Shown one piece after another: positions 5,150-56,649 of a stretch of 64,000 nt of DNA (positions are counted from its first letter, which is position 1; each line of letters begins with the position of its first letter). The notes beneath the pieces are model-generated. The model made no database searches and was not told the origin of the DNA. It saw nothing but the letters and a program-made list of their open reading frames with translations. Source of the stretch: Rugalucina vietnamica (lineage: Eukaryota; Mollusca; Bivalvia; Lucinida; Lucinidae). The DNA lies in assembly GCA_964017185.1 (NCBI GenBank), contig OZ024878.1, positions 3,844,151-3,908,150 on the forward strand, in the 5' to 3' direction. The position numbers and the translations under genes were made by a program.

Positions 5150-7440
5150 CGATTGTGTATAGAATATGATCGTAGCAATCATTTGATACCAATTTCAGCT
5201 CTCTACAGCTTTTGGTTGCTGAGATATTGCCAATTTTATTGGTATACTCCCCTGCATGTGTCTGTGTTTTTTCTCTTATATCTTAAGTTTTCTTAAATTT
5301 TTGCAACGGAATAGTCAGCTTGGTCATATTTATAATTACATGGTTATATATTATTGTCATAACAATCATTTGATACCAATTTCAGATCTCTAGGACTTAT
5401 GGTTGCTGAGATATTAACGTTTCAGTTGGTATACCCCCTCTATTTTTCTGTGATTTTTATCAAATATTTTAAGTTTTCATCAATATTCAAACAACAAGAA
5501 AGTCGAACTATTCATTTATCTTTTCACATGTTCATAAAACATTATCATAACAATCATATGATATCAATTTCAGCTCTCTAGGACTTTTGGTTGCTAAGTT
5601 ATAAAACATTTTTTTTGGTATACCCCATCCACTGTTCTGTTCACTAATATCTAAAGATTTTATCATTATTCGAAAAACAAGAAAGTCAGATTGTTTGTGT
5701 GCCTTACAACATGGTTATAGAATATTATTCTAGCAATTATTTGATACCAAATTCAGTTCTGTAGAGTTTTTTGTCACCTAGATATTAGCAGTTTTTTTGT
5801 ATACCCCCTTCGTTTGCCAGTGATTTTTCTCCTATATCTTAAGTTTCCTTAGATATTTGAGAAACAAGAAAGTAAGCTTGTTTATATTTCTTATAGAATA
5901 TTGTCATAGCAATTTTTTGATACCAATTTCAGCTCTCTATGACTTTTGGTTGCTGAGATATATACGTTTCCATTGGTATACCCCCTCTATTTTTCTGAGA
6001 TTATTATCTAATATTTAAAGTTGTCATCACTATTCCAACAACCAGAAAGTCAGGTTATTTATGCATCTTATCACAGTATTATAGAACATTATTATAGCAA
6101 TCATTTGATACCTATTTCAGCTCTCTAGAGCTTTTGGTCACTGAGTTATTAACAATTTTATTGGTATACCCCCTTCGTTTGCCAGTGATTTTTCTCCTAT
6201 ATCTTAAGTTTCCTTAAATATTTGAGAAACAAGAAAGTAAGCTTGTTTATATATCTTATCACATGATTATAGAATATTGCCATAGCAATCTTTTGTTACC
6301 AATTTCAGCTATATGACTTTTGGTTGCTGAGATATATACGTTTTCATTGGTATACCCCCTCTATTATTCTGAGATTATTATCTAATATTTAAAGTTGTCA
6401 TCACTATTCCAACAACAAAAAAGTCAGATTATTTATGCGTCTTATCACAGTATTATAGAACATTATTATAGCAATCATTTGGTACCTATTTCAGCTCTCT
6501 AGAGCTTTTGGTCACTGAGATATTAACAATTTTATTGGTATACCCCCTTCATTTGCCAGTGATTTTTCTCCTATATCTTAAGTTTTCTTAAATATTTGAG
6601 AAACAAGAAAGTCAGCTTGTTTGTATACCTTATTACATGGATGTATGATATTGTCGTAGCAATCATTTGATACCAATTTCTACTCTCTATGGCTTTTGGT
6701 TGCTGAGATACAGACGTTTCTGTAGGTATACCCCTTTGATTAACTGTGATTTTTCTGTAATATCATAAGATTTCATCAATATTCGAACAACACGAAAGTC
6801 TGATTATTTATGTATCTTAATTCATGGTTTTAGAATGTTGTCATAGCAATTATTTGATACCAATTTCTGCTCTCTATGGTTGCTGATTTCTGTAGGTATA
6901 CCCCCTCCAATGTTCTGTGATTTATCTCTAATATTGAAAGTTCTCATCAAGATTTGAACCCCAAGAAAGTCGAATTCTTTCTGCATCTTATCATATTATT
7001 ATAAACCATAATCATATCAATCATTTGATATAAATTTCAGCCCTTTAGAGTTTTTGGTTGCTGAGATATAAGCAATTTTGTTGGTAGACCCCCTTCATTT
7101 ATCTGTTATTTTTCTATAATATCTGAAGTTCTCTTTAATATTGAACATTAAGATAGCCAGTTTGTTTATATATCTTATTACATGGTTATAGAACATTGTC
7201 ATGCCAATCATTTTATACCAATTTAAGCTCTTTAGGGCTTTTGGTTGACGACATATAAGCAATTATGCTGGCACACTCCATTTTTCTGTGATTTGTTTTC
7301 TAATATATAAAGTTCTCATTAATATTCGATCACCAGGAAGTCAGTTTGATATTTATGTCTTATTACATGGTTATCAAGCATTGCCAAAGCAATCATTTGA
7401 TACCTATTTCTGCTCTCTAGGTCTATCAGTAGCCAAGAAA
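5150..7440. repeat. Satellite of ~185-bp monomers, about 12-13 units
   Basis: Each unit contains a CAATCATTTGATACC-like block, then TTTCAGCTCTCTA, TTTTGGTTGCTGAGATAT, GGTATACCCCC and AACAAGAAAGT. The block recurs near 5193, 5378, 5556, 5740, 5919, 6105, 6290, 6478, 6664, 6854, 7030, 7210 and 7398. Between about 5800 and 6600, two unit types alternate (one with CTTCGTTTGCCAGTG, the other with TATTCTGAGATTATTATC), so part of the array is organised as a dimer. No coding potential. Confidence 0.9.
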
Positions 7441-16190: not shown

Positions 16191-17544
16191 TTGCCATAGT
16201 AGTCATTGATGTGAGGATGAGTTGGGCATTACGTCCAGTCCATGATTTAGGTCAAACGGAGGCAAGATCTAGGTATACGGCTTTCATTTTTATATAAACA
16301 CCAAAAAAAAAAAAAAAAAAAAATGCAACTTAATTTCAAACCACGCTAAAACAATCGCCAGTTGAATAGACTCATTCTCTACTACACACGGGCCCATTCA
16401 ATGAGAACAATCTATTTCTTAACTAACCAAATTATGCACCCTGCATACGACATTATTTGCCATAAATGTACATGGGAATATTATGTAGGATCTGAATAGA
16501 CGCGTTAGCTGATATGTGTTATACATAAACAGGGTGCGTTGCATAATGCTAGCGCTAGCAAGCACTTCGTAACTATTTCCTATGCAATGGTGTGTTACAA
16601 AACGTGTTCGCCAGCGCTACGTAACGCTGCCAGGAGCTGCCTGTCTGAAAGCAACCCGCCGTTGCTAAGGAACAAGGAAGATCAAAATGGCTTCATCAAT
16701 ATCTCAAGGGTTCGCGTTATGCAACTCGCGCCAGAATTAGGAGGGACCATTTTTAAGTTTCGGGATAGGATGAGATCCTTGTTAAGCTTTTGAGCCACTA
16801 TAAACAAGCTCAATTATTTCAAATTTGAGAATGGTTGCGATTGCAAAAACAATATGAGCACCCGGTACAGTGTCAGTCTGATTGCACGTTTACCGTACTA
16901 AAGCGTCTTAACATTCACGGCCTCCTGAAAAATGTGCTTATACTAAGATTTTTTATTTTGGACTCGCTTTCACGTAGCATTTTCGATTCCCAGGAATGTA
17001 CGTACTGGTTATATTTATTTGTGGGTCGAATCGGACAATGTCCGGTGCATAAATATTCAAAATGTAGGGCACACTTGTGAATCTGGCCGAAATTGTTATA
17101 TCAAAACAGCCACGTATCGAAACTTTGAACATCAAAAACTAGTTTCCCATTGCATCTTCGCCACTCTAGTTTTGATTTTTAGTAGCGTTTGTAAATTCTC
17201 TTGAGACTGCATATCAGGATTTTATTCAAAATCATAAGATAAAACAGTAATAATGCAACTTACCTGTTCACCTGTCTACTCCATTACTTTGTTTACATTC
17301 AATTTTTCACAACCACTACCGGAACCAGCTTATATCTGGACGACACCAGATTATAAAGGCTTAGAGAATAGACCCCGTGAATTGAATACAGAATGCATAT
17401 ACAGAAACAACAGCAAAGATCTACTCCAAAGAAAATCTAATTCTAAGAACTGTAAGACTAGCAAAATTCTAAGTACGGTATCGTCTTTTTTATTATTTTA
17501 TTTATCTATTTTTATATTTCATATATTTACTTTTTATTTGATTT
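16191..17544. other. Intergenic, no gene recognised
   Basis: It holds an A tract (16303-16323), a segment 16516-16800 with an open frame of 84 codons that I do not recognise, and AT-rich sequence. ORFs of 60-110 codons around 16835-17585 show no motif and unusual composition. Confidence 0.45.
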
Positions 17545-17766
17545 TGCTGCTTGAACGTTATGTACATTTTCATAGTTTTAGTTAAGTTCGGGTAACTGAG
17601 TGGCCGCCTATTGAGAAATAGCTGCTCTGCTCACTTGGCTAACGATATGTTTTCTAAGTATAAGTATCTAATTGTTCACTTTGGTTTGCTCACCTCGGTT
17701 TTTGGATTGGGAATTTCTTTCTGATTGCACCTTTTCCTGATCATTGCCTACTTGTACCTTTTTAGA
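17545..17766 (+). mobile_element. Naiad 3'-end fragment upstream of TRIM-like gene
   Basis: A diverged copy of the last ~220 bases of the Naiad family (compare 1805-2018 and 56440-56649). It ends in CCTACTTGTACCTTTTT, the shared 3' terminus. The next bases lead straight into the start codon of the B-box gene at 17770. The 5' truncation point is uncertain because of divergence. Confidence 0.85.
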
Positions 17767-17769
17767 AAC

Positions 17770-18913
17770 ATGGCCTCAGGCGGAGCATCACGGTCAGTGC
17801 TCGGATCTTCTGACGAAACATTTGAGTTTGAGTGCGGCCTTTGTATCGAAGGAGGAAAACACAGGGAGGCGAAGGAGTTCTGTCCTGAATGTAAAACATA
17901 TCTGTGCGGTTCTTGCATAAATTATCATTGTCGATTCCCGGCCCTGCGAAATCATAAAACGGTTTCGACCGAGGACATGAAGAAAGTCTGTGGGCTTTGC
18001 AGTGCTGATGGTAAAAACAAGGAAGCTCGGTATTTCTGTAAAAACTGTGATTCCTGGATATGTGAAGATTGCAAGAAATCACACCAAAGGTTTCGGGACC
18101 TGACAAAACATACAATTGTATCTAGAAGTGAAATGTTCCATTCTGATTCAACAGTACCGTGTGATATCTCTGTACAACTGGGCCAGTTGTCAACTAAAGT
18201 TTCAGAAGAAAATTCGTATCCCAAAACTGGAACTAAAACTAAACCACAAAGTACAAATGAAAATAAACAATCTGATTCATCAACACAAACAAGTAGCTGT
18301 AAACAACAGTAATGTTATAGTAACTATAACTGACAAGAACCAACTCCAGTTCATCCAAGTGTTACCGTCTCTCAAGCTAGGTCGTACTATTGATGTTGAC
18401 GAGGAGTGTCGGGGTGTTGCTGTAGCAGCTGGCAAGATATTTATCTCCTGTTACAACTATGATGAGAAGGTTGGTGACATACGAGTGTATGATCTAGATG
18501 GGAGGGACCTGGGGAAGAGACTCGGCATCAATCCAGACGGTTCAAACATGTTCCGTTGTCCTCAGTATGTCGCTGCTAGTAGGTCAGGTGACAAGATATT
18601 TGTATCTGACTGGTCCGCTAGCACTAACACAGTGAGCTGTCTGACCAGTGACGGTAAGCTATTGTATCAATATAGAGATGATGATCTGGAAGGGCCACGC
18701 GGTTTATTGGTAGATGACAATGACAATGTTATTGTATGTGGTTATGCCTGTAACACAGTTCAGGTGATAACATCAGCTGGCAAGAAACACAAGACACTGC
18801 TGTCGTCACAGGATGGAAAATCTTATCCCCGGTGTGTCAGTTTCAGACCCAGTGATGGAACTCTTGTTGTTGGTGGTGACATTTACAAACTAATGGTATA
18901 TCAAATGTCATGA
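17770..18913 (+). pseudogene. TRIM-like B-box/NHL gene, frame-broken and shortened
   Basis: The ATG at 17770 has a good context (AAACATGG). The first frame (to 18312) encodes two tandem B-box zinc fingers: CGLC...FCPECKTYLCGSC...H, and CGLC...FCKNCDSWICEDC...H, at about residues 18-61 and 68-112. A polar linker then runs to a TAA. The second frame (about 18313-18913) continues as an NHL/beta-propeller-like C-terminus (GRTIDVDEECRGVAV, IFVSDW, GPRGLLVDDNDNVIVCGY) and ends at TGA 18911. Bivalve B-box/NHL proteins normally have a coiled coil and a further ~100 residues between these parts, which are missing. There is no RING domain. A 1-base shift near 18312 separates the halves; it may be a real lesion or a sequence error. 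Probably a pseudogene of a large innate-immunity or E3-like family. Confidence 0.7.
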
Positions 18914-28980: not shown

Positions 28981-30290
28981 CCAGAGGACCAATGGTCCTG
29001 TAAACGCTCACCTGAAACCCGAGATATATACCAATAATAAAACTTGTTTGACTAGAATGGTAATATACATGTATATAACCCCAGGGCCGGGTCAGAGCAA
29101 CCCTTGGAGTAAACTTCTTTTTGAAAACATAAAACTTCAGTCCATTTGCCAATATACTGCAAGTTTTGCCCTTCAAATGACATTTTAACAATTTTCCCCA
29201 TTCAAATGCATGGGCAACCCATGCCGTAAAATAGGTCAAGGTCATCCAAGGGTCAAGATTTATATAAAACTTTGTAGAGCTCCACTGCCTGATGCTTCAT
29301 GCCAAGTTTCAAAATCATAGGCCTTCTGGTTCTGGAGAAAAAAAGATTTTTAAAGGTTTTTGCTATTTATAGCCATGAGTCCATGACGGCTATCTTGGTC
29401 ATGTGACCAGGACCATTTATATAAACTTTCGTTCCCCCTTCCTAAGGATGCTCCACATGAAGTTTGGCTTTGATTGGCCAAGCCGTTTCAGAGAAGAAGA
29501 TCTTTGAACATTATGAGAATATACATGTATATTACCCCGGGGTGGGGTAAGACCTGCCCCTGGGGTCCAAATTTTTTCAGAATCATCTTAAGTGCATTTG
29601 CCCATTTCCATAAAGTATTTCCCCTCAAATGACATTCTGACAATTTTCCCCATTCAAATGCATGGGCGACACATGTTGACCTTGCCGTAAAATAGGTCAA
29701 GGTCATCCCAGGGTCATGATTTATATAAACTTTGTAGAGCTCCTCACCCTGATGCTTCATGCCAAGTTTCAAAATCATAGGCCTTCTGGTTCTGGAGAAG
29801 AAGATTTTTAAAGGTTTTTGCTATTTATAGGCATGGCAGCCATCTTGGTTATGTGACCTTGACCATTTATATATACTTTCATGCCCACTTCCTAACAATG
29901 CTCCTCATAAAGCTTGGCTTTGATTGGCCAAGCAGTTTCAGAGAAGAAGATATCTTTGAATATCACTGTAATATACATGTATATTGCCCTGGGGTGGGGG
30001 CAGACAGACCCCTGGGTCCAAATTTTTTCAGAATCATCAATCTTAAGTGCAGCAAGTTTTTCCCTACAAATGACATTTTGACAAGTTTGCCCATTCAAAT
30101 GCATGAGCGAACTATGTTGACCTTGCCGTAAAATAGGTCAAGGTCATCCCAGGGTCATGATTTATATAAAATTTGTAGAGCTCCAGTCACTGATGCTTCA
30201 CACCAAGTTTCAAAATCATTGGCCTTCTGGTTCTGGAGAAGAATATTTTTAAAGGTTTTTTCTACTTATAGCCTTGGCAACACATCACAA
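28981..30290 (-). repeat. TAGCTCACC-related long repeat, inverse copy
   Basis: Starts with CCAG plus the AGGACCAATGGTCCT hairpin (the inverse of the 3' end at 21806-21824), followed by CGCTCACCTGA. It contains about three ~455-bp units, each with TATACATGTATAT, AAAATAGGTCAAGGTCATCC, CCTTCTGGTTCTGGAGAA and TCTTGGTCATGTGACC. Non-coding; the frames here are shared shadows. Confidence 0.8.
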
Positions 30291-31367: not shown

Positions 31368-31389
31368 TACTGAAGGTTAAACGTCTCAA

Positions 31390-33310
31390 TCATATTGTAC
31401 ATGAAGTATGTTAACACACCAACTGAGTGCTGAGATACAAGGCAAAATCACTGAACCGTGAAATAAGCTCACACTGACCTATAAGCACTCTAGGGTCAAA
31501 GGTCTTATCATACTTACTCATAATGATAAAGACGAATGAAAATATACCTACTGAGTGTGAAGATATAAGGCAAAGTCACTGAAGCATGAAATTAGGTCAC
31601 AGTGACCCAGGAATACTTTAGGGTCAAAGGTCTTGTCATACGCAAACATAATGTGAAAGAAATATGTTCCTATACCAAAAGAAAACCGAGATAAAAGGCA
31701 AAATCCCTGAACCATGTAATCAGATCACAATGACCTAGGATCAAATGACTTAGGGTCAAAGGTCATACACAAACATAGTGTGAAAGAATTATGTTCATAA
31801 ACCAATTGAGTGCAAAGGTATCAGGCTAAATCACGGAACCATGAAATTAGGTCACAGTGACCTATAAGTATATTTTGGTCAAAGGTCTGTTCATACTCAC
31901 TCATAATCTGAAGGAAGCATGAAAATATAATAATTGAGTGTCAAGATGTAAGGCAAAATCACTGAAGCATGAAATTAGGTCACACTGACCTATAAGTATA
32001 TTGGGGTCAAAGGTCTAGTCATACTGACTCATAATCTTAAAGAAGTAGGAAAATATATATTCTTGCATAGCTATCTATGCGCATAGCTGTTTGAGGCCGT
32101 TTTCGATTGGTCGAAAGCCGTGTTCAAACAGCAAAACCCATGTTCAAATCATGAAATTCACGTGCCGTTTGAACATGGGTTTTGGGCAACGTCATTGGTC
32201 AATGCGACATGACGCCATGTGTTTCGTAGAAACAATATGGCCGACGTTGAAGAAGCTCCGCTGTTTTCGGTGAGTTTTTACGTTGCTAATGTTATTTTCA
32301 AGATTAGAGTGAAAATGCAAGAATAGCGATCAACCATGGTTTGTTTCAGTGTTCAAACATTCGCTGGATCACTCGGAAGGTGTTTGAACACGCGGCCTGC
32401 GGCCTTGTGTTCAAACACCTTCCTCGTGATCCATCGAATGTTTGAACACTGAAAACCATGGTTGATCCCTATACTAATACTAATTGAGTGTCAAGATATA
32501 AGGTAAAAATCACTGAACCATGAAATTAGGTCACACTGACCTATAAGTATATTGGGGTCAAAGCTCTGGTCATACTCACTCATAAACTGAAAGAAGTATG
32601 AAAATATACTAATTGAGTGTCAAGATATACATGTAAGGCAAAATCACTGAACCGTGAAATGAGGTCACAGTGACCTATAAGTTTATTGTGGTCAAAGGTC
32701 TGTACATACTCACTCATAAACTGACGGAAGCATGAAAATATAATGATTGAGTGTCAAGATGCAAGGCAAAATCACTGAAGCATGAAATTAGGTCACACTG
32801 ACCTATAAGTATATTGGAGTCAAAGGTCTAGTCATACTGACTCATAATCTTAAAGAAGTATGAAAATATACTAACTGAGTGTCATGATATAAGGTAAAAT
32901 CACTGAACCATGAAATTAGGTCACACTGACCTATAAGTATATTGGGGTCAAAGCTCTGGTCCTACTCACTCATAAACTGAAAGAAGTATAATATACTTAT
33001 TGAGTGTCAAGATATAAGGCAAAATCACTGAACCGTGAAATAAGGTCACAGTGACCTATAAGTTTATTGTGGTCAAAGGTCTGTTCATACTCACTCATAA
33101 TCTGAAGGAAGTATAAAAATATACTAATTGAGTGTCAAGATATAAGGCAAAATCACTGAACCGTGAAATTAGGTCACAGTGACCTATAAGTTTATTGGGG
33201 TCAAAGGGCTGGTCCTACTCACTCATAATCTGAAAGAAGTATGAAAATATACTAATTGAGTGTCAAGATATAAGGCAAAATCACTGGACCATGGAAAGTA
33301 GGTCAACCAA
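31390..33310. repeat. ~125-bp satellite with IR3 and DR1 receptor-type motifs
   Basis: About 13 units: TAATTGAGTGTCAAGATATAAGG, AAAATCACTGAACC, ATGAAATTAGGTCACAGTGACC, TATAAGTATATTGGGGTCAAAGG and CATACTCACTCATAA-type blocks. Perfect IR3 half-site pairs AGGTCA-nnn-TGACCT occur at 31849, 31977, 32528, 32662, 32790, 32918, 33053 and 33171. A GGGTCAAAGGTC-like DR1 follows about 25-30 bases later in most units (for example 31493, 31621, 31753). Interrupted at 32058-32480. Confidence 0.92.
32058..32480. mobile_element. Foldback insertion in the 125-bp satellite
   Basis: Two parts: 32058-32325 with inverted ATTCTTGCAT / TGCAAGAAT ends, and a perfect long palindrome 32330-32468 (TCAACCATGG...AGTGTTCAAACATTCG, arms about 65 bp, GC-rich loop GCGGCCTGCGGCC). 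It contains TTGAACATGGGTTTTG and its inverse as well. It interrupts a satellite unit. Confidence 0.8.
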
Positions 33311-36511: not shown

Positions 36512-36609
36512 TTTTAAATTTGAGGAAGAGGAGAAAGCAGCAACTCCAGCTAATGACTTTAATTAGTAGAACTGATTAAGTGGACTTATTAGCTGTAAAA
36601 CTAGGAATC

Positions 36610-39600
36610 ATGGCCTCAGCCTTACCAACATTTCCACCGTTTAACATTCATGAAACTGCTTTGGATGTACACTGGCGAAAATGGATTAAACGTTTGGACA
36701 ATTTACTTGTTGGTATGGACGTTAAAGACAAGAAACGTCAAAGGGCTTTACTGCTTCACTACGCTGGAGAAGATGTAAACGACATATTCGAGACTCTATC
36801 AGACACAGGAGATGACTATGCGACAGCAGTCAAAAAGCTCACAGATTATTTCGAACCTAGAAAGAATACAGAATATGAAGTATACAAATTCCGTCAAGCT
36901 AAACAACAGACGGATGAAGGGATTGATGCATATTTGACTAGGCTTAGACAGCTTAGCATAAACTGTGAATTTGGTGATGTTAATAAAGAAATAAAATCTC
37001 AAATAATTCAGGGCTGTAGTTCAACAAGACTTCGTAGAAGGGCGTTACGAGAGGATCAGACCCTCGATGATCTTTTAAAATTGGCAAGATCTATGGAACT
37101 ATCAGATAAGCAAGCGTGTGAGATCGAACATACGGACAAACCGGAAAGTACAAATGCCGTGCGTGCTTTCAAAAAGAAGCATAGGACTGTAGACAAAAGG
37201 AAACACTTTCCTAAGTCACCCGAGTCAAAAACACCGACCAAGAAACAAACATGTAGGAATTGTGGAGGTGAATACCCACATGTGGACAGACAGTGCCCAG
37301 CAAAAGGAAAAACATGCCATGCTTGTAAGAAACAAAATCACTTTTCTTCAGTGTGTCGATCAAAAAGAAAAGGAAATCGGAGATCTGTCAATCAAGTTGA
37401 AAAGACCAATGCTTGTGACACTAGTAGCGATTCTGAGGATTATGTATTTGGAATGCAAGAGGAAGAAAATGTAAATGCAGTGAAATCTAAGCAGCCAAGT
37501 TTGAATGTGACAGTAAATGGATTAAATGTACGTATGTTAGTGGACACTGGGTCAAGCATAAATGTTTTGGATGAAAACACCTACCAGAAATTTCAGGTAA
37601 AACCCAAATTGTTAAAAACTGACACCAAAGTATTTACTTATGGCTCCAATACTAACTTTCCGTTGTTGGGAAAATTCATTGGGACTCTTGAAACACAACA
37701 CAAAATAACAACGGCGACCATATACGTTACAAAAGGTGCAAGTGGATGTTTGTTGTGTTATGACTCAGCTGTTGAACTGCAGGTAATTCCTGAAATCGCA
37801 ATGTTTTCATCTGACAACAATAAAGCTGAACAGTTATGTCAGAAATATTCATCAGTTTTCGAAGGCATAGGGAAATTGAAAGACGTTGAAATAGACTTAC
37901 ACGTTGACCCCAATGTACAGCCAGTACAGCAGCCTCACAGACGCATACCTTTTCATGTACGGAAAGATGTTGAAAAAGAGCTCAAAATCATGATGGAGAA
38001 CGATTTAATTGAAGAAGTCGATGGCGGTGCGACGCCATGGGTATCACCGATCGTGGTAGCACCTAAACCTAAATCACCGAACGAAGTTCGAATCTGTGTC
38101 GATATGAGGGAACCAAACCGTGCTATAAAGCGTACACGATACATAATTCCAACTGTGGATGACATTATTGTGGATTTAAATGGTGCGAAAGTGTTTTCGA
38201 AGCTTGACTTGGTCAAAGGTTATAATCAATTAGTCCTCTCAGAAAGCTCGAGGAATATTACATGCTTCACTACTCATGCAGGATTGTTTCGGTATAAACG
38301 ACTTTGCTTTGGAATAAATTCTGCAGCTGAAATATTTCAAAATACATTACGAAATGTATTACATGGATTAGAGGGTGTTAAGAACATAAGTGATGACATC
38401 ATTGTGTATGGAAAAGACCAGGCAGAACATGACAAAAGACTCGAAGCGGCATTAGCGCGACTTCAAGAAAAGAACTTGACACTTAATAAAAAGAAATGTG
38501 AGTTCAATAAGGATAAAATTGAATTTTATGGACATATTTTCAGTTCTGCAGGGATTTCGGCTTCGCCCCAGAAGGTGGACGCGATCAAAAACATGGACAT
38601 ACCAAGCTGTGTGTCCGAGGTACGTTCCTTACTTGCTATGAGCAATTACTTATCAAGGTTTATACCAAATTACAGTACAATTACTGCCCCATTAAGATAC
38701 CTCACAAGACATGATGTGCAGTGGCACTGGGAAACCGAACAAGACAGTGCATTTAATGAACTGAAACGTGTACTAACAAGTGATACGGTTATGGCATATT
38801 TTGACCCCAAGGAACAGACGGAGACAGTCTTATCGGTCGACGCTAGTCCTGTAGGCCTTGGAAGTGTATTAATGCAAAATGGCAAAGTTATTGCATATGC
38901 GAGTAGATCGTTATCTGACGTTGAGAAACGGTACAGCCAAACTGAACGGGAAGCGCTCAGCATCGTGTGGGCAATTGAACATTTCAGGTTATACTTATAT
39001 GGACATTATTTCACGCTAATCAGTGATCACCAAGCCCTTGAAATCATATTCAATAATCCGAAATCAAAACCACCCGCTAGGATTCTTCGCTGGCAGCTAC
39101 GTTTACAGGATTACAATTTCAAGGTTATTTATAAAAGTGGAAAATCCAACATAAGTGATTACCTGAGCAGACACCCAAACAAAGATCAGCTGATTTCTGA
39201 TAAGAGCAGACAGCAGGAAATTGCAGAATGTTATGTTAACTACTTGATAGACAGTAGTGTTCCCAAGTCAATGACCCTGAAAGAAATCTGCCTCAGTACA
39301 AATAATGATCATGAACTTCAAACGGTCATGCAGTGTGTAAAATCAGGCAGCTGGGATAAATCATATCAAAACAAAACTGTAGATACATTTTCCAGGTTAA
39401 AGAATGAACTCACTGTGGTGAAAGTGCAGCATGGAGAAATTTTGTTGCATGAAAACAGACTTGTTATACCAAATGAATTACAGACACGAGTAATTGAATT
39501 AGCTCATCAGTCACACCTAGGGATTGTTAAAACAAAACAATTGTTACGAGAAAAGGTGTACTTCCCAGGAATTGATAGGAAAGTAGAAGAATTGTGCCAA

Positions 39601-40551
39601 AGCTGCATACCGTGCTTAGCAGCCACACCCATGAAAACATCGGAACCGTTACAAATGTCAGATTTACCAGATGCACCATGGACAGTGCTAAGTATGGACT
39701 TTTGTGGACCGTTTCCGAATGGAAGTTATTTGCTCGTTCTAATGGATGAATATAGTAGGTACCCAGTAGTTGAGATTATTAACTCTTTATGTGCAAAAAC
39801 TGTAATACCGGTCTTGGACAAAATATTCTCATTGCTAGGTTGTCCTGTTGTGCTAAAGAGTGACAATGGCGCTCCTATGAACTCAGAAGCATTCAGAAAC
39901 TTTGCGAACTATATAGGCTTTGAACATAGGAAGATCACACCTCTATGGCCAAAAGCAAATTCAGAATGTGAAAGGTTCAACAAAACAATATGCAAGGCCA
40001 TTAGAGCAGCTTGTGTTGAAAACAGAAACTGGAAACAAGAAATGTATAATTTTCTGAGGAACTATAGAGCAACTAAGCATGCTACATTGAATAAAGCACC
40101 AGCTGAAATACTGTTTGGTAGGAACATAAAAACTAGACTGCCGCAGTTTGTACCCAAATCAAATGACAAGAAACTCAGAGGTACAGATAAGCAGAAAAAG
40201 CTGAAAATGAAAGTATACGCAGATGAACGAAATAATGCGAGAAAATCTAACTTGACAGTTGGTGATAATGTCTTAGTTAAGCAGCCAAAGGAAAATAAAC
40301 TGTCAACCCCGTTTGATCCTAAACCATATCAGATTACGAACAGGAAAGGTACAATGGTAACCGCTTCAAGAGAAGACAAGTCGATCACGAGAAACTCTAC
40401 GTTTTTCAAACCTATTCATGGACATGTACAGGTACCACCAACAAATGATGACAGTGACGATTTTACGGGACCCGCTGAAGGTGAAACCCTGAGAAGGTCA
40501 AACCGTGAGAGAAGACCACCCACCTATTTGGAGGACTATGTTACGACATAG
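36610..40551 (+). CDS. Gypsy gag-pol polyprotein (1313 aa)
   Basis: The start is taken as ATG 36610 (ATCATGGCC); the frame is open further upstream but has no earlier ATG. Order: Gag region (about 1-210); two CCHC zinc knuckles (CRNCGG...HVDRQC and CHACKKQNHFSSVC, about 215-249); aspartic protease VDTGSS (about 311-316); reverse transcriptase (about 440-640) with KLDLVKGYNQ and NISDDIIVYG, where ISDD replaces the usual YIDD; RNase H (about 740-850) with SVDAS, EREALSI and SDHQAL; integrase HHCC finger (about 965-1003) and DDE core (D1030 in SMDFCG, D1085 in KSDNG, E1121 in CERF, giving D-x35-E); and a PFDPKPYQI...GTMVTA GPY/F-like module near 1235-1262. No chromodomain. Gag and Pol share one frame without shift or stop. 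It provides all proteins for particle assembly, reverse transcription and integration. No stop or frameshift is seen. Confidence 0.95.
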   Translation: MASALPTFPPFNIHETALDVHWRKWIKRLDNLLVGMDVKDKKRQRALLLHYAGEDVNDIFETLSDTGDDYATAVKKLTDYFEPRKNTEYEVYKFRQAKQQTDEGIDAYLTRLRQLSINCEFGDVNKEIKSQIIQGCSSTRLRRRALREDQTLDDLLKLARSMELSDKQACEIEHTDKPESTNAVRAFKKKHRTVDKRKHFPKSPESKTPTKKQTCRNCGGEYPHVDRQCPAKGKTCHACKKQNHFSSVCRSKRKGNRRSVNQVEKTNACDTSSDSEDYVFGMQEEENVNAVKSKQPSLNVTVNGLNVRMLVDTGSSINVLDENTYQKFQVKPKLLKTDTKVFTYGSNTNFPLLGKFIGTLETQHKITTATIYVTKGASGCLLCYDSAVELQVIPEIAMFSSDNNKAEQLCQKYSSVFEGIGKLKDVEIDLHVDPNVQPVQQPHRRIPFHVRKDVEKELKIMMENDLIEEVDGGATPWVSPIVVAPKPKSPNEVRICVDMREPNRAIKRTRYIIPTVDDIIVDLNGAKVFSKLDLVKGYNQLVLSESSRNITCFTTHAGLFRYKRLCFGINSAAEIFQNTLRNVLHGLEGVKNISDDIIVYGKDQAEHDKRLEAALARLQEKNLTLNKKKCEFNKDKIEFYGHIFSSAGISASPQKVDAIKNMDIPSCVSEVRSLLAMSNYLSRFIPNYSTITAPLRYLTRHDVQWHWETEQDSAFNELKRVLTSDTVMAYFDPKEQTETVLSVDASPVGLGSVLMQNGKVIAYASRSLSDVEKRYSQTEREALSIVWAIEHFRLYLYGHYFTLISDHQALEIIFNNPKSKPPARILRWQLRLQDYNFKVIYKSGKSNISDYLSRHPNKDQLISDKSRQQEIAECYVNYLIDSSVPKSMTLKEICLSTNNDHELQTVMQCVKSGSWDKSYQNKTVDTFSRLKNELTVVKVQHGEILLHENRLVIPNELQTRVIELAHQSHLGIVKTKQLLREKVYFPGIDRKVEELCQSCIPCLAATPMKTSEPLQMSDLPDAPWTVLSMDFCGPFPNGSYLLVLMDEYSRYPVVEIINSLCAKTVIPVLDKIFSLLGCPVVLKSDNGAPMNSEAFRNFANYIGFEHRKITPLWPKANSECERFNKTICKAIRAACVENRNWKQEMYNFLRNYRATKHATLNKAPAEILFGRNIKTRLPQFVPKSNDKKLRGTDKQKKLKMKVYADERNNARKSNLTVGDNVLVKQPKENKLSTPFDPKPYQITNRKGTMVTASREDKSITRNSTFFKPIHGHVQVPPTNDDSDDFTGPAEGETLRRSNRERRPPTYLEDYVTT

Positions 40552-45430: not shown

Positions 45431-48185
45431 CAATATACAATACAATACAAATTTATTCATCGATTCAGGCCACAGGCCCATAACAACATAAATACATACA
45501 GAGAATATATATACACTTTATGTACTGGTGCATAGTCATAATCGAAATAGCAATTAAATTAATTGGGGTTGTCATTTAAAGAGTCTATGTAACTGGTGCG
45601 TCTATCCGTGGCATGAGATAGGTACAAAGCTAATTTAGTTTGTATGTGTGCATTAGTATCACTAAACAATTTATTAAACTTGAATAGTGAAGGTGATTGA
45701 ATATACTCTCTAGGTAGGTATTTTACCCTCAAATCCTTATATAATTCACATATAAACACAAAGTGATATTCATCCTCAATAGATGACTGGCATATCTTAC
45801 ATATTCTATCTATTCTTGCGACACCACTATGCCGACCTTTTTCTATTTCGAGGCAATGAGAAGACACTCTAAATTGTGACAGGGTACGTCTAAACTTTCT
45901 AGTCTTAATATGGTCTAGGTAAGATTCGTATCCATACACAGTCTTAAAGCCAGTATACGCTCTTAGTTTAGAGTTTCTATGTATATTAAAATACCATTGT
46001 TGCAAATATTGGTCTCTAAGCCTTTCAACAAGCGTATTTACAAATTGATATTCATTTGCTACTGATTGTCTTTCCCATACATAGCCAAAGCCGTTAGAAC
46101 AAAGCAGGTGTTTTATTCTACTTGCCCAATTCACAATACCAGCTTCTGAATAACATTTCAACATTATATAACACTTTTTTACATATCTACTGTCTTGCAT
46201 TCGTAGAATTTTTAACCAGTACTTAACACAACGTTTTACGGCATTGATATACATTGGGTAACGCCCACAATCCCCTAATACAGCATCATTTGATGCATTT
46301 AGTTTTACACACATGTATCGTTTACAGGCATAGACATGAACCCTTTCTATGGCTTTCTGGCTATCGACACCCCATAGTTTCGACCCGTATAAAAGCACGG
46401 GTGAAATTTTACTATCAAACAGTTTAAAAAACACTTCTTTTGGCAACTGACCATAATGGTATAACTTAGTTAAAAGAGAGACCAATACTCGTTTACCTTT
46501 TATGGCTTGATCATCTGCCATTTGCGTTAATGACAACTGTCGAGTAAAGTTTAAACCAAGGTAAGTAAAACATGATACAGTCTCTAAGATTTCCCCTGCG
46601 TACGACCACACCTCATTTTTACTTAATATGCCACCATTTTTAAAAACTACGACTTTCGTCTTTACAGTGTTTACGACTAAGTCTCGAACAATACAAAAGT
46701 TATGAAGTAAGTTTAATAATCTCTGCAATCCAATTACAGAGTCTGATATTAAAGCCAAGTCATCGGCAAACATCAATAATAAGATTTCTGCTAAATTGGG
46801 GAAAAGTTGTACTCCACGTAGATTACTATTTTCTATTTCCGTTGCCAGTTCGTTAATGAAAATGGAAAATAATATTGGTGAAGCCAAACAACCTTGCTTT
46901 AAACCCACTGGACAGTTGAAAAATGCAGTAAGACCTTCATTAGTTCTAACACAAGCCTTCACGGAATTATACATGCTTAACAGGTTCTTATAAAGTTTAC
47001 CCTTAATTCCAGATTTACTAATAACGTTCCACAGCTTGCTCCTATTTATCGAGTCAAATGCCTTTGTTAGGTCCACAAATGCCACATATAATTTACCACG
47101 TTTCTTTGACAAATACTTGTGTATTAAGGAATAGAGGATAAAGGACTGGTCAATCGTATTATATCCCTCTCGGAACCCTGCCTGGGATTCCGAAATTTTG
47201 TTGTATATGTTTGTATAAAAGGTAACTCTCCTTGTTAATATTGCCGTATATATCTTACCGAACACGTCAAGGAGGGAAATACCACTGTAATTGTCAGGGT
47301 CGTTCGCATCCCCCTTCTTCAGTATAGAAACAATAATTGAATAACACCATGGTTCTGGATACTCTGCACGGTCAAATATTCGATTAAAGAACTTGTTAAG
47401 GAGTGGTAAAATAGTTTCAACACTATTTATGAAAAACTCTGGAATTATGTCATCAAGACCCGCACTTTTTCCACATTTCAAATCTTTCACTGACTTCAAA
47501 ATTTTTCGTTAGTAATTTCAGAGTTGAAAATATAGTCTTCGAGTTCATTCTCGGTTATGTCGTATTCAATTTCGTCGTGATCATCTTCTACATCGATGTT
47601 GACCTCGTTATCATCAACGTTTCTAGACTTAAAGAGTTTTTCAAAATGGTCTTGCCACTGTGCTTTTGAGATTGTATTACCACTTCGATATCGAGAATCT
47701 GTCAACCGTTTTAGTTTATTCCAGAAAGACTTTGGATCAACAGAATTAGAAACAAGATCGTCAAGGACTTTTCTATTATGTAGCTCTTTTTGCGTATCAC
47801 AGTGTAATTTAAAAGTACTGCGTGCTTCCTTGTAAGCTACTAAGTTTGTAGTATTTCTCTCGCACCTGAACTGGCGAAGAAGACGAAATTTTTGAGCTTT
47901 CAGTATTTTACAGGTTCGGTCAAACCAAATAGGCTGTTTCTGTATAATGTTTTTGGTTTTACGCTCGCAGCATTCGCCACACAGTTTTAACTTGTTTACA
48001 AATTCATAAGCGATAAAATTGATATCGTTTAAGGGATCCTCGATTTTTTAACTAAACTCATCTATAAATTCGTTTGTGAATGTCAATTTTATGTTCTCTT
48101 TATACTGTTCAGTAGTATTGGCGTCAAAGCGATATGAACGTTTCGGCACATGACTGTCACAGGCTTTGGTTTCAGGTGGCTGCCA
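45431..48185 (-). pseudogene. Non-LTR retrotransposon (LINE), 5'-truncated, frame-broken
   Basis: The minus strand contains the RT domain: CGKSAGLDDIIPEFF, VAFVDLTKAFDSI (motif A), GLKQGCLASPILF (motif B), FADDLALIS (motif C). The C-terminal zinc finger is CKICQSSIEDEYHF...C and the stop is at 45559. Upstream of the RT the same protein continues in another frame (47496-47850, with QWQDHFEKLF and WFDRTCKILKAQ) up to about 48185, with a frameshift near 47497 and a stop near 48048. The N-terminal endonuclease is missing. The 3' end has a TATTG-type short tandem tail. It belongs to the LINE group with a C-terminal CCHC-like finger; I do not assign the clade. It is inserted next to another LINE remnant. 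Confidence 0.88.
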
Positions 48186-50346: not shown

Positions 50347-51153
50347 CCTAGATAGCATGACAACGTTGGCCCTACGTTGGCATTGAATCGCATCGTTGGT
50401 AAATGGTTAGCCGTTGGCAGTGAAACGTTGGGCCTACGTTGGATCTATGTTGACCCATTTGTGACACAAAATCTTATTAATTTAATTAGGCAGCCAAATA
50501 ATACTTAAGTTGGCAGAGTGATGGGAAAACGTTTTCCTTTCAATTATTGTAACGTTGGTCCAACGTTTGCCCAACGTCGTGTGTTTCCTAAAATGTTCAT
50601 ACATGTGTATAATGTTGGCCCAACGTTGGGCCAACGTTAGCACACCAAGCCCGAAAAAATGACAATTCAAACTCTTAAATGGTCAAAACAACTATAGAAA
50701 AGCCTTTATATTATCTGAACAGAGTAAGTTGTTACATAATCTGATCAGGCGTAAGTTGCAGGTAGACCAGGACATTCCAGTTTCAATCTAACGTATTTTG
50801 GCCAATCTTTGTTCTGCATACATGGTAATTAAGCCGTTTTACTTGTTGGCTTACCTCAAACCAACAGTCCATTAAAATGTGGTGTACAACCAGGAAACAC
50901 ACATTTTGCTCATGCAGAATCAAAGGTACAGAGCAGCTGCACCTTTGATTAAGTTGACCTAGACGTAATATTCCCATCGGTATTCCGTTAAACCTCTCCA
51001 TACCGACGGAAATGGGATATATTCAGCCCTTGGTCGAAAATGAAAAGTCAGCAAAACTGCAAAACTGTGTTATTCTAACTTATGTAAAATCTTTTCTTGC
51101 ATATATGGCATGGATAATATATATTCTAGTTGTTAAAGAACGCAGAATCATAA

Positions 51154-51746
51154 AAAGGTACAAGTAGGCAAAGATCAGGAAAAGGCGCAATCAGAAAAAG
51201 ATTCCCACTCCATAAACCGAGGTGGGAAAAAACCAAACTAACAATCAGGTACTTTATACCATGAAACATATCGTAAACCGAATGAGCAGCTATTTTCCCA
51301 ATAGGTGGCCACTCAGTTACTTTAACTTAACTAAAAATATGAAAACATACGTAAGGCGCCAACAGCACAAAAACATTTAAACACCAAGACATAAAACAAA
51401 AAGAACCACTACAGAAGTATCGACTTGGAACGATCAGTAACACAAAGTTACTGGCGGGCTTAAACCAGTTTTACAGGTACCTAACCTCACCCTCAGCTTC
51501 TGCAGTGGTTCATAACATTTAGTTAGTTATTTGGTCCTTGTGGTGAATCTCTAACTAGTCAATGAATCATCAAGAACAAACAAACAAATCATGATAAACA
51601 TCCTGATGAATCAAAACCCAGGACTCACAGATTGAGTAAGCTGCCCGACGATGGAGATCTCCCTGGGTGCCGAATAACCTACTAACTCCGGAGCAAAAGA
51701 AAAACACCAGTTGGACCCCGGTGGGCCAAGCAACAGACAAGAAGCT
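51154..51746 (-). mobile_element. Naiad 3'-end fragment, inverse orientation
   Basis: The reverse complement of the last ~590 bases of the family (compare 1424-2018), starting AAAAAGGTACAAG and ending at CAGACAAGAAGCT. It joins the right half of a TGAGCC MITE at 51747. Confidence 0.9.
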
Positions 51747-51842
51747 ATTCTTTCTAAATCTGAAATTTCTATCTTCTACAGTCTGGTTTGTGTCGGACAT
51801 GATCAGTGACCCAGATTGTTGGTTTTCTCATGCATAGGCTCA
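51747..51842. mobile_element. Right half of a TGAGCC MITE
   Basis: TCTGAAATTTC...GTTTGTGTCGGAC...TTGGTTTTCTCATGC...GGCTCA matches the right half of the MITE family; the left half is absent. Confidence 0.8.
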
Positions 51843-52253
51843 GGTAGTAATTGACCTGCACTGATTGACTGTGTAGATGCACACGCTAATCGCACAGGTA
51901 ATGTATTCCTGATGTGAAACCCAAATTTTGTCTTAAATAATATGTATAATTATTTTTGGTGCAATAAAGAGTAGATTTAATATTCATACATATATTATTT
52001 TGTTTGCATTGATAAAAATTATTTTTCCAATTTTCTAGCTTTTTGATACACATGCTTAGATAAGAAACAAATAAGGTATAATCAAATTATTTGTTATCAT
52101 AAAACAGACAGGTCACCCACTGCTTTCACCACAAATTAATCTGAAACATGATACCCAGAAGAACAGAATATGTGGCCACAATTATCTATGGATAATTGAG
52201 CCGCGTCATGAGATAACCGGACTTCAACACAATACTAGTACTCCCAACTATGA

Positions 52254-53371
52254 CTATCACAAAAACGATTAGGGATTACATTAACTCCTCTTAGGTTGCA
52301 TGCCGCGTCTACTGTACGGATTCCTCATTCAACTAACAATTTTCAAAATTTATTACCTACTGTTAGGGTGACACCTCTTAATTTATTTTCGGCATCTACT
52401 GTTAATCTACACGGAGCTTCTAATTCAAATATGTTTCGTAATAATCTTCAGATTAGGTTATCTCCACTCAAATCACCAATTTTACGTAAATATATTAATC
52501 CGTTCAAGAGACCTGGAATGTACCCTAGTATTTCTAAGTGCAATGCCAAGAAGTGCAACTGTTGCAATCATTTATGCTCTAAGACTACTATCACTTCATC
52601 TGTGAATGGTAGGACATTTTCAGTGGTTAATGATTCTGATTTAGACTGAAAATCAATGGATCTTGTATATGTTCTTACTTGAAATACAAATAAATGTAAG
52701 ATGCAATATGTTGGACAAACTTGTCGAACTTTGCAAAAACGATTTGGTGAGCACTATCGTAGAATCAGAAAGCCAAAAAATAATGATACCTTTCTGTACC
52801 AGCATTTTAAGCGCACTGGTCATTCTCCCAATGATGTTATAGTTCAACCAGTCGAGAAAATCTCATATGATGAAAATTCTTCAGTTAGATTCAAAAGCAT
52901 CAAACGATTTGAAACTGAACTTAAATGGATAAAATTACTGCAAACACCCTTTCCACTGGGATTTAACGACAACATTTACCATGAAGGCAATATTTCCAAA
53001 ATGCCCGATTTTGATGTACTTACACTTTCAGAGTCCCGTAAACGTAAATCTAGATCACATGGTATACGGGAAAAGGGTAATGACAAACGTAAACGGTGCG
53101 CTGCATTGAAATTGAACATTTCCCTTAATGATTTAGCTGTTAAACTAAGGATTCACGGTCGACATCCAATGCTGTCTTATCTTAGTTCTCTACCTATTTC
53201 TGCATTACGTTCCTTGGACACAGAGTCTAATAGATTTTGCGATAGAAATCATCAAATGTATGACGCTGCACTGTTAACAAGATGGTATACTCAGCATGCT
53301 CTTCGTCCATTTATCGATTCCGAATCTAATCATACTAGAGGTTTTATTAAAATTCCTTTCATTAATAAAGG
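52254..53371 (+). pseudogene. Naiad N-terminal part: CCHH-type GIY-YIG endonuclease
   Basis: One reading frame runs from 52254 to 53371 if TGA at 52647 and 52680 are read through. An N-terminal basic region contains CNAKKCNCCNHLC (about 52543-52581). The endonuclease has VYVLT (GIY-like, 52665-52679), then the TGA, NKCKMQYVGQT (YIG-like), the catalytic Arg in LQKRFGEHYR and Glu in RFETELKWI (about 52908-52934). The TGA codons replace the two cysteines that precede and follow the GIY strand in the CCHH finger of Penelope-type endonucleases. The start codon is unclear: an ATG at 52250 is in another frame. The frame continues in sense into the RT half when the inverse insertion is removed (FINKG before it and IDFIDLPSIF after). 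Confidence 0.85.
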
Positions 53372-53950
53372 AAAAAGGTACAAGTAGGCAAAGATCAGGA
53401 AAAGGCGCAATCAGAAAAAGATTCCCACTCCAAAAACCGAGGTGGGAAAAAAACCAAACTAACAATCAGGTACTTATACCATGAAACAATCGTAAGCCGA
53501 ATGGGCAGCTATTTTCCCAATAGGTGGCCACTCAGTTACCTTAACTTAACTAAAAATATGAAAACACACATAAGGCGCCAACAGCACAAAAAAAATTTAA
53601 ACACCAAGACATAAAACAAAAAGAACCACCACAGAAGTATCGACTTGGAACGATCAGTAACACAAAGTTACTGGCGGGCTTAAACCGGTTTTACATGGCC
53701 ATAACCTCACCCTCAGCTTCCGCAGTGGTTCATAACACCTAGTTAGTTATTCGGTCCTCGTGGTGAATCTCTAACTAGTCAATGAATCATCAAGAATAAA
53801 CAAATAAATCATGATAAAAATCCTGATGAATCAAAAACCAGGACTCACAGACTGAGTAAGCTGCCCGACGATGGAGATCCCTGGGCGCCGAATAACCTAC
53901 TAACTCCGGAGCAAAAGAAAAACACCAGTTGGACCCCGGTGGGCCAAGCA
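53372..53950 (-). mobile_element. Inverse Naiad 3'-end insertion inside the Naiad ORF
   Basis: The reverse complement of a 5'-truncated 3' end of the family, starting AAAAAGGTACAAG and ending at GGGCCAAGCA. It splits the single Naiad ORF without visible target duplication. It resembles the 51154-51746 fragment, but its truncation point differs by about 12 bases. Confidence 0.92.
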
Positions 53951-56033
53951 ATTGACTTTATTGATTTACCAAGCATATTTCAGGATAATTCAGTGATACA
54001 GTCTACACCTACCTACTTCCAAAATTCAGAACCTCCTATTATTTGTTACAAATATAACAAACCAATCAGAAATACTATTTTAATTTCAATAAACTTGTTT
54101 CTGATCTTGATATCCATGCTAATACTCCTAAGTCTTGAGATTGTAAAGATTCAAAATATGTTTATCAACCAGCCGGACATATAGTTACCGGAAATTTAAA
54201 AATAATTTTGGATTCTAGAATTCGCAAAATTGTTTCTAAAGGTCCGAAATATAGATTCCCTTCCTACATTAATTTCGACAAATGTAGAGAGGAGATTGCA
54301 TCTGCATTAAATGATTTCGGTAATCGATGGTGTAAACGAGAGGGTGTTGAGGATAATGCTCTTAAAGAATGGAAAAGAAGTATCTTCACTATCGTGGATA
54401 AACGTATTAAGTTTTATTCACAAAATACTAATCTTTTACCTCCTAAACCCAAATCGTCATTTAGGCATTTGAAGCAGGGTATCCAAGAATTTCATAGACA
54501 AAACCGCAAACAATGTTGTTGTCGTTTGTAGGCTTCACTACGTTAACACCTTAAAACAGGAGCTTGATGGTACCAGGGCTTATCTGGAGACAGATACTGA
54601 TGGAGTGTCTGTAGTTAATGCCCACTTAAACGATTTACCTGTTAAGTTTTCTGTTTGTGTCAATGAAGGCCAAGACAAACTTCCTACGATGTATTGGTTA
54701 CCTAAGCTTCACAAAAGACCATGCAAAGCTAGATTTATTGCAAATTCTAGCTCTTGTACTACCACTGAACTTTCTAAATTATTTACTTCCTGTCTTACTG
54801 CTATCAAATCTCATGTTATAAGATACTGTGAGACAGTGTATGAAACTTCAAATAAAAATTGCTTTTGGTCAATAAAAAATTCTGGTGAGGTGCTCAGTAA
54901 ATTGAAGTGTAGAGGGTTCCGTGCGACAAGCTTGTCCACATATGATTTTTCTACTCTGTATACAACATTACCACATAATCTAATAAAAGAAAAACTTCTG
55001 GATTTGATAGAGTGGACCTTCAAAAGGGCATTAAAAAACTATGGTTCACTTTATTTGACATGTAATGACAGAAAGGCTTTTTTCACTTCCTCTGACCAAA
55101 GTCGGTATACACTTTGGTCATGTCAGAATGTGTGCGACGCCTTGTCCTATCTCCTTGATAATATTTATATTAGATTTGGGACCAAGTTATACAGACAAAT
55201 TGTTGGAATTCCGATGGGTACAAATTGCGCACCTCTCGTAGCTGATCTATTTTTATACTGCTACGAAAAAGGTTTCATGGATTCTCTTAACCATGATAAT
55301 CAAGCTGATGTTATCGAGGCTTTTAATTCCACATCTAGGTACCTCGATGACCTTTTGAACATTGACAACCCTTATTTTGAAGGTATGGTCAATCAAATTT
55401 ATCCACCTGAACTTCAGTTGAACAAAGCCAATATCTCAGATACCGAAGCCCCTTTTTAGATCTACATATGTCTGTTGCAAATGGATTTGTTTCTTCTAAA
55501 AGTTATGATAAGCGCGATGACTTTGATTTTGATATAGTAAATTTTCCATTTTTGGATGGTGACGTTCCTCGTAGTGCTTCTTATGGTGTTTACATTTCGC
55601 AACTTATTAGGTTTGCTAGAGTCTGCAATCATGTTACAGACTTCAACGCTTGAAATAAATGTTTAACGGCAAAACTTCTCCAACAGGGCTATCGGTATCA
55701 TAAACTTCGAAAAACCTTTTCTAAATTTTATCGTAGACACTATGAACTGATTTCCAAATATAATGTTGGGTTAAAGACGCTTTTGAGGGCCTTTCGGAAC
55801 CTGAATTTTATGGTGACTTGGTTTACAAATTTAAGAAACTTATAGGAATTAATGATTTTTCTTTTCAGTTCAGAAAAATTATAACACGTTACAGACGTAT
55901 AGGCTATAACTTGAATGTTATGCGACAGTCTGCATGCTTAGTTTTTAACCCAATCATGGCTGATAACTATGCTGCCTTCTTTAATTGCACACCGGTGGGT
56001 CGAGCGTCAGACTCTATGATGGCCCCGACTTAA
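53951..56033 (+). pseudogene. Naiad C-terminal part: CxC linker and reverse transcriptase
   Basis: From IDFIDLPSIF (53951), through a 1-base loss near 54078, to the linker with TGA-GAT-TGT (54136-54144, the CxC motif as X-D-C) and YVYQPAGHIVTGNL. A ~20-base loss near 54495 removes the start of the ADKA motif. The RT follows: LPTMYWLPKLHK, YDFSTLYTTL (motif A), GIPMGTNCAP (motif B), RYLDDLLNI (motif C). Then come a 1-base loss at about 55455, a CGA-to-TGA stop at 55651 (Arg in the copy at 308-2018), a 4-base loss near 55790, and the terminal ASDSMMAPT and TAA at 56031. Penelope RTs are related to telomerase RT. Catalytic aspartates are retained but the copy cannot make a full protein. Confidence 0.88.
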
Positions 56034-56649
56034 AGCTATTCATTTTAGTTGGTTGGGGCCGGAGCTTCTTGTCTGTTGCTTGGCCCACCGGGGTCCAACT
56101 GGTGTTTTTCTTTTGCTCCGGAGTTAGTAGGTTATTCGGCGCCAAGGGATCTCCATCGTCGGGCAGCTTACTCAATCTGTGAGTCCTGGTTTTTGATTCA
56201 TCAGGATGTTTATCATGATTTGTTTGTTTGTTCTTGATGATTCATTGACTAGTTAGAGATTCACCACGAGGTCCGAAGAACTAACTAAATGTTTTGAACC
56301 ACTGCAGAAGCTGAGGGTGAAGTTATGGCCATGTAAAACCGGTTTAAGCCCGCCAGTAACTTTGTGTTACTGATCGTTCCAAGGCGATACTTCTGTGGTG
56401 GTTTTTTTTTTGTCTTGGTGTTTAAATTTTTTGTGCTGTTGGCGCCTTATGTATGTTTTCATATTTTTAGTTAAGTTAAGGTAACTGAGTGGCCACCTAT
56501 TGGGAAAATAGCTGCTCATTCGGCTTCAGATATGTTTCATGGTATAAGTGCCTGATTGATAATTTGTTTTTTTCCCACCTCGGTTTTTGGAGTGGGAATC
56601 TTTTTCTGATTGCGCCTTTTCCTGATCTTTGCCTACTTGTACCTTTTTG
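56034..56649 (+). promoter_or_regulatory. Naiad 3' UTR with conserved stem-loops
   Basis: It contains a long stem (ACCACTGCAGAAG near 56299-56311 with CTTCTGTGGTGGT near 56388-56400), an inner CAGTAAC/GTTACTG hairpin, and a TAGTTAG/CTAACTA hairpin (about 56248-56290) bracketed by ATGA and TGA motifs. If the element encodes selenocysteine, a SECIS should be here; the ATGA-bracketed hairpin is one candidate but does not clearly fit the consensus. Confidence 0.6.

Follow-up and report, generated by a model that had tools for sequence, protein, structure and literature searches.

A decayed Naiad-type retroelement of Rugalucina vietnamica, probably from a multi-selenocysteine family, with a SECIS element across its stop codon

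Results and Discussion

The window, i.e. the whole 64-kb stretch of Rugalucina vietnamica DNA that was analysed, contains two copies, A and B, of one retroelement. Copy B is very probably the decayed remains of a Penelope-like element of Naiad type, whose family encodes a single protein, a selenoprotein with three selenocysteine (Sec, U) residues; in related families there are probably as many as four. The multi-selenocysteine reading of the original prediction is supported by the presence of a SECIS in both copies and by the alternation of stop, tryptophan and cysteine in relatives. What takes the observation beyond chance is that the positions of the three in-frame TGA codons (sites 1–3) are stop or W in the listed relatives too, and that both matches to Rfam at the gathering threshold are SECIS elements.

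Organization of the element

Copy B (51152–56648) is a dead element in the 64-kb window, with an inserted repeat and frame changes, and it cannot make the protein because the coding sequences of the endonuclease, of site 3 and of the reverse transcriptase (RT) are split across frames and an inverted repeat has been inserted (Table 1). The single long frame that had been proposed was not found: the TGA of site 3 is in another frame than those of sites 1 and 2, the endonuclease frame is ended by the inserted repeat, and the RT occupies three frames. The ATG at 52250 is out of frame with the endonuclease as well. The claim that neither TAA nor TAG interrupts the endonuclease region held, since the frame 52296–53387, with its two TGA codons read as residues, stays open up to a terminal TAG, which lies within the terminal repeat of the element that is inserted here in inverted orientation. 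The RT match is weak, and among ten relatives examined RVT_1 was matched in two, at E values up to 0.01. Sites 1–4 are all missing from copy A and copy B is broken, so that neither copy in the window is intact. A further TGA, at 55651, is CGA in copy A and was counted as decay, as it had been before.

Table 1. Features of the two Naiad copies in the window
Feature	Position	Strand	Remark
Copy A, 5′-truncated: part of RT, SECIS, terminal repeat	306–2019	+	blastn 93.5% to copy B
SECIS, copy A	1367–1434	+	RF00031, 39 bits, E 2.5e-4; 68/68 positions identical to that of copy B
Pseudo-LTR copy, inverted, 5′ side of copy B	51152–51746	−	94–98% complementary arms; blastn 93.8%
ATG with the codons following it; N-terminus as in relatives (MTIT...)	52250–52291	+	P0002, P0003 and P0008 begin MTITNRLK
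N-terminal part and GIY-YIG endonuclease, open if TGA = Sec	52296–53384	+	last codons within inserted repeat
Site 1, putative Sec codon TGA	52647–52649	+	just ahead of GIY-YIG strand 1
Site 2, putative Sec codon TGA	52680–52682	+	end of GIY-YIG strand 1
Second inverted pseudo-LTR copy, splitting the coding region	53372–53956	−	~585 bp; 53372–53951 is 94.9% identical to 51152–51733 (blastn)
Site 3, putative Sec codon TGA, CxC linker motif	54136–54138	+	U-D-C
Reverse transcriptase, over three frames	54500–56030	+	weak RVT_1 match, E 0.31, to 54605–55456
Site 4, TGT (Cys) in copy B	54527–54529	+	stop or W in other families
SECIS, copy B	56008–56075	+	RF00031, 39 bits, E 2.5e-4 for 64 kb
TAA stop of RT frame, inside SECIS	56031–56033	+	frame ...SDSMMAPT*
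3′ terminal pseudo-LTR	56063–56648	+	first 13 nt shared with the SECIS 3′ end

Copy B has three repeats of ~580 bp, two of them inverted relative to the third; the arms of the 5′ copy (51152–51254, 51254–51380, 51398–51659 and 51660–51746) are 94–98% complementary to parts of 56063–56648. A remnant of the Naiad terminal repeat, ~80% identical, is also present at 17526–17764, where it runs directly into a B-box zinc-finger frame (17725–18312). The window further contains an uninterrupted Gypsy-type polyprotein of 1323 residues (36580–40551) that matches protease, RT, RNase H and integrase, a 646-residue reverse transcriptase frame on the minus strand (45559–47499) that we would guess to be LINE-like, and long tandem arrays at 5158–7421, 29159–30279 and 31385–33305 with units of ~188, 441 and 128 bases.

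Naiads are characterized by a CxC linker motif, an insertion-in-fingers domain in the RT and a CCHH motif in the endonuclease, and we know of no canonical hammerhead ribozyme in them. In copy B, a GIY-YIG endonuclease lies upstream of an RT within one element, the CxC linker is present as U-D-C, and the pseudo-LTRs are in inverted arrangement; the lack of any hammerhead among the Rfam matches at gathering in the 64 kb lends weak support, copy B being decayed. Naiads with several selenocysteines were reportedly described from clams and spiders by Craig et al. in 2021; they reportedly share with copy B the N-terminal GIY-YIG domain, the CxC linker, the C-terminal RT, the inverted pseudo-LTRs, several in-frame UGA codons and a SECIS. 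The anatomy of copy B fits the Naiads, and with selenoprotein Naiads already known, it is the overlap of SECIS and stop codon that may be new. Canonical Penelope-like elements, as described in the available parts of two papers (PMC3846280, PMC11167929), consist of an RT with a C-terminal GIY-YIG domain and have pseudo-LTRs with inverted copies; copy B shares the RT, the GIY-YIG domain and the inverted pseudo-LTR copies, whereas its endonuclease is N-terminal and it has in-frame TGAs and a SECIS in addition.

A SECIS element spanning the stop codon

The Rfam scan covered the whole 64-kb window at the gathering threshold, with a cut-off of 35 bits for SECIS_1 (RF00031). Two matches to SECIS_1 were obtained, at the 3′ ends of the two Naiad copies of the window, and no other Rfam match reached gathering in the 64 kb. 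The check by SECIS prediction was therefore positive in both copies. A search restricted to the range proposed for it, 56034–56649, would have truncated the element, which begins at 56008. The segment 56004–56080 folds with a minimum free energy of −32.5 kcal/mol (z −4.63), and none of 200 shuffled sequences reached so low a value. The motifs AUGA, AAA and GA, which we take to be the SECIS core, are in register in the Rfam SECIS alignment. The identity of the SECIS between the copies is no sign of selection, because 7.8% of the 68-column windows in the alignment of copies A and B are equally without mismatch.

From the first base of the SECIS to the TAA at 56031–56033 there are 23 nt, which places the stop codon inside the SECIS, and the two A of this TAA are the first two of the AAA motif. 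The last 13 nt of the SECIS are the first 13 nt of the terminal repeat starting at 56063. Unlike that of a usual selenoprotein gene, the SECIS is not wholly in the 3′UTR and straddles the end of the coding sequence. In copy B the overlap encodes SDSMMAPT. Among the 103 listed relatives with the RT motif MGTN[CY]APL, 47 end in SDSMM[AV]PT when up to two substitutions are allowed, and 38 of these match it exactly. The other 56 include calls cut or fused elsewhere, three proteins ending ...GRISD, GRASD or GRALD, and members of a more distant group, which end some residues earlier, e.g. ...TGRT; if the SECIS keeps its place, the stop would have moved into it in the group of the window.

According to the available parts of two reviews (PMC6769590, PMC8310308), cellular SECIS elements are located in the 3′UTR, with fowlpox virus GPX4 as the exception, the SECIS of which is within the coding sequence and works in mammalian cells. 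In neither fowlpox GPX4, as far as these parts describe it, nor copy B is the SECIS confined to the 3′UTR; unlike the viral element, that of copy B straddles a stop codon and belongs to a retroelement. Beyond the fowlpox case, no report of a SECIS overlapping the stop codon was seen in the literature listings that were searched, and Craig et al. 2021 is known to us by citation.

In-frame TGA codons and the corresponding sites in relatives

All three TGA codons of the original prediction were borne out by codon reading. Those of sites 1 and 2 flank the VYVLT strand as described (DLD-U-KSMDLVYVLT-U-NTNKCKMQYVGQT), and that of site 3 gives TGA-Asp-Cys at the CxC linker (NTPKS-U-DC), where relatives in the alignment have S-C-D-C or T-C-E-C. 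A fourth position, site 4 in the RT motif VVVV-x-RLHY, had been overlooked, as had the overlap of SECIS and stop codon. Sites 1 and 2 are presumably the cysteine positions of the CCHH zinc site in the endonuclease. Counting non-gap rows of alignment A5, 48 of 49 have H153 and 47 of 50 have H170; among the relatives, site 1 is W in 18 of 18, and site 2 is W in 17 and C in one of 18. Among the listed relatives one cysteine was seen at these two endonuclease sites, that of P0194 at site 2; the residue of P0194 at site 1 is W.

The relatives were obtained in three protein searches with 456, 205 and 1002 matches, the best 120 of each giving 315 distinct listed relatives. They are products of gene callers, seen at the protein level, and TGA in their DNA is accordingly inferred: a Sec codon would be read as the end of a protein or, under what appears to be a calling code with TGA as W, as tryptophan. 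An alignment to P0003 comprised all 197 proteins P0004–P0200, P0002 and P0003 (W at sites 1–3) being excluded from the counts, and a stricter motif matching was run on all 315 listed relatives. Three of the Naiad proteins, P0116, P0243 and P0245, come from records named as Candidatus Thiodiazotropha MAGs; such bacteria live in lucinid clams, so the Naiad proteins in these MAGs probably represent clam host DNA.

At site 1, W was found in all 18 aligned relatives with a residue there and Cys in none of them (one gap, 178 of the 197 not reaching the site). At site 2, W was found in 16 and C in one of the 17 aligned relatives with a residue (one gap, 179 not reaching). Neither site has arginine in any aligned relative with a residue there. 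Site 3 was W in 28, C in 27, S in two, R in two and P in one, with three gaps and 134 proteins not reaching it. Motif matching on the 315 listed relatives showed 52 proteins ending at site 3, with W in 20, C in 13 and S in one, cysteine making up 13 of the 34 that read through; site 4 is the end of 28 and W in 24, C in 21 and F in one (C in 21 of 46 reading through). Moreover, 68 of the 315 predicted proteins start at a Met a few residues past site 2. The check for alternation, run on the proteins of the listed relatives, was in favour of the prediction: the sites are stop or W, or else Cys at sites 2, 3 and 4. At sites 1 and 2, the proteins gave no indication that most intact members have TGC/TGT or random codons.

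Cysteine homologues of an in-frame TGA are present for sites 2 and 3, and site 4 is Cys in copy B and stop or W elsewhere; stop/W and Cys interchange at three of the four positions (sites 2, 3 and 4). Copy B, with TGA at sites 1–3 and TGT at site 4, has its site 4 cysteine in common with clusters such as P0235 (2966 members). Twelve listed proteins have W at both sites 3 and 4, and 13 of the more distant group combine Cys at site 3 with an end at site 4; W at all four sites in one protein was found in none of the 315.

Stops and tryptophans as signs of TGA

Near-identical relatives that differ in how a site was called bear on the codon behind it. At site 3, P0068 (539 members) and P0056 (673 members) end, while P0143, 98.9% and 98.4% identical to them, respectively, over 186 residues in each case, continues as W-DC. 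The simple reading of this site is TGA, because TAA or TAG would end both calls and TGG neither, and TGA in relatives at site 3 is well supported. Twenty relatives have W or C at one or both of the first two sites; that not one of them terminates at site 3 fits calls made with TGA as W.

TGA in relatives at site 4 is fairly supported. The closest stop/W pair among the listed relatives is P0134, which ends, and P0164, which has W (82.7% identity over 278 residues); P0164 also reads through where P0209 (4545 members), 97.6% identical over 498 residues, begins two residues past the site. For sites 1 and 2, the relatives showed W or later starts: P0165 has W at both, and P0130, 93.8% identical to it over 145 residues, begins after site 2. 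Because gene callers choose starts, a protein beginning past site 2 or 4 tells less than one that ends there, and any protein terminating at site 1 or 2 would fall under the length limit of the searches. For these two sites, at which the codon of the window is TGA, TGA is likely in relatives as well; the W of relatives there could also be TGG, or a mixture of TGA and TGG copies may be present.

Alternative explanations

Copy B is clearly decayed, as seen from its frame changes, its inserted repeat and the TGA at 55651 against CGA in copy A, and R is found at site 3 in two relatives of the alignment, all of which would agree with TGAs arisen, e.g. from CGA, by ordinary decay of a dead copy, together with a SECIS that is a chance fold. 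Such decay is nevertheless extremely improbable, given that most of the listed relatives reaching these positions have stop or W there, with Cys next commonest at sites 3 and 4, that arginine is absent from sites 1 and 2, and that the clusters have hundreds to thousands of members; a chance fold is opposed by SECIS scores above gathering in both copies.

It is very improbable that the TGAs are real stops dividing the element into separate frames joined by ordinary readthrough or reinitiation. The separate proteins predicted among the 315 listed relatives would be expected from such stops (68 starting past site 2, 52 ending at site 3 and 28 at site 4), but site 2 closes strand 1 within a single GIY-YIG fold, relatives have Cys in place of the stop, and a SECIS is present. 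The high frequency of W in aligned relatives (site 1, 18 of 18 residues; site 2, 16 of 17) could alternatively mean that TGA is read as Trp or that relatives truly have Trp (TGG) at these sites. This we consider the least probable explanation of all: W is expected from a calling code with TGA as W, near-identical proteins end at site 3 instead, any other residue found in place of W at sites 2, 3 and 4 is mostly Cys, TGA is the codon present in the window, and a SECIS would be needless.

Proposed mechanism and significance

Under the preferred reading, that of a multi-selenocysteine protein, the 3′ SECIS of intact copies would recruit the host SECIS-binding protein and the Sec elongation factor, and the in-frame UGAs would then be decoded as Sec instead of stop. 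Sec would occupy positions where some relatives carry Cys (seen at sites 2, 3 and 4), with a metal-ligand or structural role presumably played at sites 1–3, and the activity of the element would probably depend on the selenium of its host. Sec insertion itself is deduced here from the DNA and protein sequences.

Because the SECIS spans the stop codon, a ribosome finishing the protein must open it, and this may limit the number of ribosomes that could recode one mRNA at once. We put forward, as a tentative and rather doubtful proposal, that high-copy families have the recoding signal over the stop, with TAA giving two bases of the SECIS core, and that ribosomes translating the final codons open the SECIS and so make Sec insertion self-limiting. 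If true, we would know of no earlier SECIS outside viruses that overlaps its own coding sequence.

Every Sec residue comes at a cost in expression and needs selenium. With three or four such residues retained by a retroelement in clusters that number hundreds to thousands of copies, the benefit of Sec over Cys becomes testable, natural sister families differing in which of the four positions would be Sec. The overlap of SECIS and stop codon would likewise offer a natural test of whether a SECIS works while ribosomes run into it, a situation so far described, in the parts of the literature available to us, for fowlpox virus.
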